DNA of 64,000 nt from Sulfolobus sp. E5-1-F. Lineage in GTDB: Archaea > Thermoproteota > Thermoprotei_A > Sulfolobales > Sulfolobaceae. How positions within the stretch are numbered: the first letter of the stretch is position 1; each line of letters starts with the position of its first letter. A program made the position numbers and the translations under genes. The notes under the pieces are model-generated. The model worked only from the letters and a program-made list of their open reading frames with translations, searched no databases and was not told the DNA's origin. Location of the stretch: positions 1,648,001 through 1,712,000 of the forward strand of contig NZ_CP045687.1 in the NCBI RefSeq assembly GCF_009601705.1, read 5' to 3'. Shown here in pieces: positions 8,691 to 12,248 of this stretch.

Positions 8691-9893
8691 ATGGATATTA
8701 TCGAAAAGATTTTAGAATATTCAGATCCCTATAAGGTTTTGCAAGAGAAAGTTAAGATAATGAATAATTCGCTGTTATTTAACAACGAAAATATCCCATT
8801 TAAAAAACCTATACTTATTTCAGTAGGAAAAGCCTCTCTACCCATGGCGAAGTTCTTTAGTGAGAGGATTGAATTAAGGGCTAAATTAATAGTAACACCG
8901 AAAGGTACTAAAAGTAAAGAAAACGATGTTATAGAAGCTGGTCATCCCTTACCAGACGAGAATAGTATAGAGGCTGGGAAAAGAGTAATAGAGCTATTAA
9001 CTAGTGAGGATTACGATTTGGTAATATTTGCAATTTCTGGTGGTGCGTCAGCACTAGTTGAATATTCTGAAATATCCTTAGATGAACTAAGAATGATTAA
9101 CAAAACGCTCATAAATTCAGGGATAGGAATTAATAAAATAAATATAGTAAGAAAACATTTATCTAAAATAAAAGGGGGTAAAATAATTGAATATGTAAAA
9201 GATAATATTCCCGTAGTGTCATTTATTGTTAGTGATGTTCCAGGTAATGATATAAGGAGTATTGGAAGTGGTCTTACTAGTGTTGATAACTCTACTAATG
9301 ATGATGCACTAGAAATTTTAAAAGGTTTAGGATTAGAAAAATACTCTAGGTATTTAACTGAGACTCCTAAGAGTTTCTCTAGAATTGTGAAAAATTATAT
9401 AATTTTGGATAATATGGAGGTACTTAAGAAGCTCGCAAGTATTCTGAGCAACTCTTTCATTCTAACTTCTGAAATCAGAGGAGAGGCAAGAGATGTTGGA
9501 GCCATTATTGCATCGATTTATAATTCATCCGAAAACTATAATATACCTTTAAGAAGACCTTACTATTTATTGCTTGGTGGAGAGCCAGAAGTTACAATAC
9601 AAGGAAAAGCCGGTAAGGGAGGAAGAAATGGAGAAGTCTGTCTATCATTTCTTAAATATGTAAAAAAGGGAAACAGATTTGAATTATTAGGTTTTGCTAC
9701 TGACGGCATTGACGGTAACTCAGAATATGCTGGTTGTAAGGTTACTTCTGATATGGAAATAACAGAGGATGAGATAGATACTGCATTAGAGACTCACAAT
9801 AGTTATGGATTGCTAGAAGGTTATAGAGGGACTATAAAAACTGGCTATACACATACTAATGTGAATAATATTTATGTGTTAAGGGCTCCTTGA
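8691..9893 (+). CDS. gckA: Glycerate 2-kinase (MOFRL family)
   Basis: A 400-residue glycerate kinase with the family landmarks SVGKAS near 45, AGHPLPDENS near 85, ISGGASAL near 109, the KINIVRKHLSKIKGG segment near 145 and a C-terminal MOFRL domain with LLGGEPEVT and FATDGIDGNS. It phosphorylates D-glycerate to 2-phosphoglycerate in the semi-phosphorylative or non-phosphorylative Entner-Doudoroff pathway used by Sulfolobales. It follows the winged-helix gene after 2 bases, and its end overlaps nuoB, which is convergent, by 22 bases. Confidence 0.9.
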   Translation: MDIIEKILEYSDPYKVLQEKVKIMNNSLLFNNENIPFKKPILISVGKASLPMAKFFSERIELRAKLIVTPKGTKSKENDVIEAGHPLPDENSIEAGKRVIELLTSEDYDLVIFAISGGASALVEYSEISLDELRMINKTLINSGIGINKINIVRKHLSKIKGGKIIEYVKDNIPVVSFIVSDVPGNDIRSIGSGLTSVDNSTNDDALEILKGLGLEKYSRYLTETPKSFSRIVKNYIILDNMEVLKKLASILSNSFILTSEIRGEARDVGAIIASIYNSSENYNIPLRRPYYLLLGGEPEVTIQGKAGKGGRNGEVCLSFLKYVKKGNRFELLGFATDGIDGNSEYAGCKVTSDMEITEDEIDTALETHNSYGLLEGYRGTIKTGYTHTNVNNIYVLRAP

Positions 9894-10384
9894 GTTCTTA
9901 TCTTCTTTTGTAACATTAAAACAGCTCTAGCAACAGCCTCTGGCCTTATTGGGCATCCAGGAACGTATAAATCAACTGGAATTCCGATGTCTGAGGGAAG
10001 TACGGTATTGTAAGAATTCCAGAAGATTCCTCCTTCGAGTATACAAGCTCCAAGGGCTATAACGAACTTCGGTTCTGGCATCTGGTCGTACACAATCCTC
10101 GCTGCTCTACCCATTTTTCTGCTTAGCGTACCTTCGAGTATAAGTATGTTCGATTGTCTAGCTGAGGAGAATGGCAACATACCATACCTTTCTGCATCAA
10201 ATCTTGCAGCTGCAAAAGCTCCAAATTCTGTGCCACAGCAAGATGTAGTAAAGTGAGGTGGCCAGAGAGAAAATGAAATACCCCAGTCAATTATTGATTT
10301 TATTGGTTTACGATTAATTAACCATTGAGCTGCCTTTTTGGCTACGTCATTTAGGTTACCAACTAAAATAGTCTGTTCCGTCAT
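9872..10384 (-). CDS. nuoB: NADH dehydrogenase-like complex I subunit B (NuoB)
   Basis: A 170-residue NuoB/PSST homologue. The four cysteines that ligate the terminal [4Fe-4S] cluster N2 are visible: the CC pair in TTSCCGTEF near 49-50, the Cys of ALGACILEGG and that of VPGCPIRPEA. It passes electrons to quinone in the peripheral arm of a complex I-like enzyme. No other complex I gene is in this window, so it is separated from the main nuo cluster or is one of several paralogues. Confidence 0.9.
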   Translation of the reverse strand: MTEQTILVGNLNDVAKKAAQWLINRKPIKSIIDWGISFSLWPPHFTTSCCGTEFGAFAAARFDAERYGMLPFSSARQSNILILEGTLSRKMGRAARIVYDQMPEPKFVIALGACILEGGIFWNSYNTVLPSDIGIPVDLYVPGCPIRPEAVARAVLMLQKKIRTQGALNT

Positions 10385-10421
10385 TGCTATACTCTATTTC
10401 ACCAATCCCTTAAATAACTTT

Positions 10422-10474
10422 ATTCAGAGATCACCTCATAAATCATCAAATCAATTTTCTCTATCTCATCATCG
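10422..10474 (-). ncRNA. C/D-box guide RNA candidate with a guide to the 16S rRNA 3' end
   Basis: Reading the minus strand, box C ATGATGA lies at 10472-10466, a D'-like TTGA at 10454-10451, box C' TGATGA at 10448-10443 and box D CTGA at 10427-10424. The spacings (11-base and 15-base guides, about 50 bases in all) fit archaeal C/D-box sRNAs. The guide before box D, TGAGGTGATC, is the reverse complement of the 16S rRNA 3' end, GATCACCTCA. By the N+5 rule it would direct 2'-O-methylation to the C of GAUCACC. TTTAAA near 10500-10495 could be the promoter. Confidence 0.68.

Positions 10475-10495: not shown

Positions 10496-12248
<1,753 letters not shown>

Follow-up and report, generated by a model that had tools for sequence, protein, structure and literature searches.

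The guide RNA gene between sua5 and nuoB

The window analyzed here is a 64,000-nucleotide stretch of the genome of Sulfolobus sp. E5-1-F. Its sua5-nuoB intergenic gap carries a C/D-box guide RNA on the minus strand (10422-10474), as read directly from the sequence. Pfam identifies sua5 (10514..11590, plus strand; PF01300 and PF03481) as the divergent neighbor and nuoB (9872..10384, minus strand; PF01058) as the downstream neighbor. From the order and spacing of the boxes, a gene of ~50 nt with both ends predicted is placed at 10424..10474, minus strand. All of its elements are on the same strand, and the order C, D', C' and D described in the earlier note was borne out.

Box C is ATGATGA (10466..10472; consensus RUGAUGA), kept in all seven sequences of the genus, and box D is CTGA (10424..10427; consensus CUGA). 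Between them are the 11-nt D' guide GATAGAGAAAA (10455..10465), box D' TTGA (10451..10454), which is one base off CTGA, and box C' (10440..10449). Box C' can be read in two overlapping registers, TTGATGA at 10449-10443 or ATGATTT at 10446-10440, and the family alignment favors the latter. The guide core TGAGGTGATC (10429..10438) is the complement of the encoded 16S 3' end, GATCACCTCA, and is separated from box D by the single free base T10428. By eye, only scattered pairs flank boxes C and D in the window, and a strong terminal stem is not evident. Rfam scans of the window and the homologues gave nothing above the gathering thresholds for the guide RNA.

A TATA-like sequence, CTTTAAAG (10497..10504, minus strand), is centered ~26 nt 5' of the RNA start and recurs in five sequences of the genus; it may be the promoter of the guide RNA gene itself. 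Another, TTATTTAA (10410..10417, minus strand), lies between the RNA and the nuoB ATG, ~29 nt before the latter. The nuoB gene is probably leaderless, with a promoter of its own.

Exact matches to TGAGGTGATCNCTGA in the window number one (shuffle mean 0.30, with <=2 mismatches allowed). The decisive evidence is conservation rather than this single-window match.

Conservation and predicted target of the guide

The family search pattern, TGAGGTGATC-N-CNGA (TGAGGTGATCNCNGA), fixes the guide and box D and leaves C' and D' free. It found the guide with box D in all 31 Sulfolobaceae genomes, representing 11/11 genera, nearly always as a single copy. In a few genomes there is a second match that looks coding, and the reversed-pattern controls gave a handful of matches. 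A pattern in which the outer guide base and the gap to box D are left free matched 27/31 of these genomes, with zero control matches in the family.

Because the search pattern itself fixes the guide, the independent evidence comes from the surrounding C' and D' boxes. The RTGA of box C' is invariant and at the same distance from the guide in 31/31 genomes, and box D' (NTGA or NCGA) lies 3-7 bases before C' in the same 31. Base 1 of D' pairs with base 6 of C' in the kink-turn. These two bases are paired in 23/31 genomes, as A-U in 10, U-A in 9 and C-G in 4, and the pair type varies even inside one genus (A-U at L004, U-A at L005). The shuffle mean was 12.5 and none of 20,000 shuffles reached 23, although the shuffles ignore relatedness. 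D' and C' therefore occur together in all 31 genomes, in a form compatible with a k-loop (G-A pairs plus the pair of D' base 1 with C' base 6). The window copy has U-U at these bases in the favored register and U-G in the other.

Loss of the boxes in close relatives had been set in advance as the observation that would count against the gene. The guide and boxes D, C' and D' are kept in 7/7 genomes of the genus, while the D' guide drifts among these seven sequences. No convincing pairing with 16S or 23S rRNA was found for the D' guide of this genus, which is apparently without an rRNA target. Judged from these sequence patterns, it is nearly certain that the guide RNA gene is real.

The encoded 16S 3' end, taken from six relatives of the window genome, is GCGGCTGGATCACCTCA. 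With this sequence, the ten Watson-Crick pairs and one G-U pair proposed earlier are obtained: the guide pairs with GGAUCACCUCA over a region of 10-12 nt and spans exactly the last ten encoded bases. When guides were scanned against the 16S rRNA of relatives, the 3' end was the top match in each species tested. The G at position +5 from box D pairs with a C that corresponds to C1533 in E. coli and to C1490 in S. solfataricus, the latter counted from m62A at 1475 along AACCTGCGGCTGGATCACCTCA in the numbering of PMC11698992. C1490 falls within G1486-C1493, the tail segment that is wrapped by eS26 and also occupied by SD helices, according to PMC11698992. The proposal of the D+5 C within the anti-SD as the target stands, with the register fixed and the outer guide base following the encoded 16S end across families. 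It is very likely that the RNA is a C/D guide for the 16S 3' end, and methylation of C1490 by this guide is likely.

The encoded and the reported mature 16S ends are different. According to Bourgeois et al. (PMC11698992), the mature S. solfataricus 16S rRNA ends in CCUCC in 27/32 clones, while the gene reads CCTCA; the same CCUCC end appears for S. acidocaldarius in old catalogues cited there. In 31/31 genomes the guide has T, which fits the encoded A, opposite the last 16S position. Because the guide matches the encoded end and not the reported mature CCUCC, it should act on precursor rRNA. The pairing under selection appears to be with the precursor, before end conversion, rather than with mature ribosomes.

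Ribose methylation of the 3' end is absent from the P. abyssi 16S modification tables (PMC7005279), so the C1533/C1490 site is not universal in archaea. A table of 25 modifications of S. solfataricus 16S rRNA belongs to PMC11698992, and RNA-seq and RIP-seq of S. acidocaldarius exist (PMC5539422); the RNA or its mark may already be included in these data.

Other families, guide order and known C/D RNAs

The variable-gap scan also matched the families f2 and f5; in a phylum sample it added seven genomes of f21, three of f38 and two of f23. Beyond Sulfolobaceae, C/D RNAs with this guide in an identical register occur in four or five Thermoproteota families. Clean C/D RNAs are legible in f2, f21 and f38; the locus L214, for example, reads TTGATGA-AGGAGGTGATCT-CTGA-GTAAA-ATGATGA-CCGACTATGGGGGG-CTGA. 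A single base separates GATC from CTGA in all credible cases, and the predicted target nucleotide is therefore always the same.

The outer guide base changes with the rRNA end. It is T in Sulfolobaceae (31/31), where 16S genes end in CCTCA, and G in f5, f21 and f38, where they read CCTCC. In f2 it is also G, and the 16S ends there were not clearly found. In f23 it is A, which mismatches the last 16S base. The change is expected if the rRNA end is the target, and it would amount to one or a few evolutionary changes.

Pattern matches in f10 (G104) and f40 (G443 and G378) look coding, and the gap in f40 is three bases; they were treated as chance matches. A scan of named genomes returned mostly bacterial matches, as chance would produce, and a few Sulfolobaceae. 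Some entries are peculiar. At L197 and L198 in f2, GGCTGGATCACCTCCT is preceded by unrelated sequence in place of the usual h45, possibly reflecting an intron that interrupts 16S shortly before its 3' end. The guide-bearing entry L090 (JAFMDM010000002.1) is titled "Euryarchaeota archaeon", but its length of 40109 is the same as that of contig G021:C125 from the family of the window, and it is probably mislabelled. L216 (G522, f25) and L158 (G057, f5) show identical surroundings of the guide in different families, a probable case of binning contamination.

The position of the conserved guide differs between lineages. In f2, f5, f21 and f38 it is in the first half of the RNA (C-guide-D'-C'), in the genus of the window it is in the second half (C-x-D'-C'-guide-D), and in most other Sulfolobaceae the order is D-C-guide-D-C. 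Most Sulfolobaceae genera other than that of the window have sR15, or an RNA resembling it, ending ~10 nt ahead of the guide (about 692-780 of L114, from genome G020; L110, L122 and L117), and RTGATGA follows 3-5 nt past the D box of the guide. These orders resemble circular permutations of a single RNA; for D-C-guide-D-C, a guide that shares boxes with sR15 is the alternative. A C/D RNA that is permuted or has several guides might be present there, and sR15 and the conserved guide possibly form a single multi-guide RNA in these genera.

In G020, the sua5-nuoB gap (C1, about 1400380-1400500) also holds sR15 itself (Rfam RF01146, S. acidocaldarius), a C/D RNA that immediately precedes the homologous guide. 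The D guide of sR15 is distinct: CTTCGGCGCTCTGCT, as read in the close relative G012 (L110), best fits 23S rRNA, pairing 11 bases with GAGCGCCGAAG. RF01146 has clear matches in G020 and G012 only, and a marginal one elsewhere in the genome of G115. Neither the window nor any of the seven genomes of its genus matches the model.

The class is already known, and it is the target that is striking and unusually telling. The RNA resembles the archaeal C/D-box sRNAs (the sR series of Sulfolobus, Pyrococcus and Pyrobaculum) in its boxes C, D', C' and D, its ~50-nt length, its intergenic location, its 12-nt guide with the D+5 rule, and the pairing of D' base 1 with C' base 6. It differs from them in that the guide aims at the very 3' end of 16S rRNA, the anti-SD, that it is unmatched by any Rfam family, and that one of its guides seems empty in the genus. 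In the main text of the C/D-RNA papers searched for it, the Shine-Dalgarno sequence is not mentioned. PMC4644070 describes a circular rearrangement of M. kandleri sR39/119 and sR88 in which the order of the two guide halves is changed, as it is here. In the present case, f2, f5, f21 and f38 have the conserved guide in the C-D' half and the genus of the window has it in the C'-D half, while most other Sulfolobaceae show the D-C-guide-D-C order.

A proposed role in maturation of the 16S 3' end

The explanation preferred here, with a probability of about 0.8, is a C/D-box sRNP that guides 2'-O-methylation at C1533/C1490 of 16S on precursor rRNA. Its steps, from transcription of the guide RNA and sRNP assembly to the methylation, its timing and its purpose, are deduced from sequence patterns. 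The sRNA would be bound by L7Ae, Nop5 and fibrillarin, and its 10-12 nt guide would pair with the encoded 3' end of pre-16S rRNA. Methylation would then fall on the nucleotide opposite the fifth base 5' of box D, most likely on the precursor and ahead of the reported conversion to CCUCC. The methyl mark would make the exposed tail, later occupied by either eS26 or an SD helix, stiffer and better protected, and the bound sRNP would also hide the anti-SD. The guide RNA probably modifies or protects the 16S end during ribosome making.

The targeted C lies in the tail of the small subunit that is exposed and functional; in Saccharolobus, eS26 and SD-led mRNAs compete for this stretch. That all Sulfolobaceae genomes searched, and four or five families besides, carry the guide suggests that one nucleotide of this tail matters. 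The guide RNA, a single small intergenic product with relatives in an archaeon amenable to genetics, offers a direct genetic handle on anti-SD modification and on the puzzling difference between the 16S end and the gene.

The sRNP could instead be mainly a chaperone or placeholder, covering the pre-16S 3' end against misfolding, trimming or early mRNA binding until it is processed, with methylation secondary or absent. The guide spans precisely the ten terminal encoded bases and matches the unedited end, and such a role has been proposed for C/D RNAs (PMC4644070). This is nevertheless an unlikely main function, as the one-base register to box D and the D box kept in all lineages fit a fixed methylation site and not simple covering. 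The perfect complementarity to the anti-SD would also suit a regulatory RNA that sequesters the anti-SD of mature ribosomes and so favors leaderless over SD-led mRNAs, and PMC11698992 describes S. solfataricus mRNAs as mostly leaderless. Such a regulator would need neither C/D boxes nor a fixed register, and its guide would not be expected to carry T, pairing with A, in 31/31 genomes when mature 16S is reported as CCUCC in S. solfataricus and S. acidocaldarius; it is considered very improbable.

Readings without a guide RNA are hardly credible. GAGGTGATC is a strong SD sequence and could serve a short ORF or nuoB, and the RTGATGA downstream in other genera could hold an ATG or GTG. In the window, however, a start codon is absent at SD distance, as had been recognized before, and the nuoB ATG, 40 bases beyond box D, is preceded by a separate TATA-like box. 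Short reading frames past RTGATGA do not seem to be conserved, and an SD site leaves the upstream D'/C' covariation unexplained. Chance resemblance, to which short boxes in an AT-rich genome are prone, is equally negligible, being already refuted by the conservation in 31/31 genomes, the covariation, and the joint change of guide and target in other families.

The methylation-guide reading leaves room for an additional part of the sRNP in the conversion of the 16S 3' end from CCTCA to CCUCC that is reported for Sulfolobus and Saccharolobus. Pairing with the last ten encoded bases, together with methylation of C1490, might set the extent of trimming before C addition; this is a tentative idea with rather low odds. 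A role of the sRNA as template for the added C was rejected, as the guide base at this position is T/U, which pairs with A.
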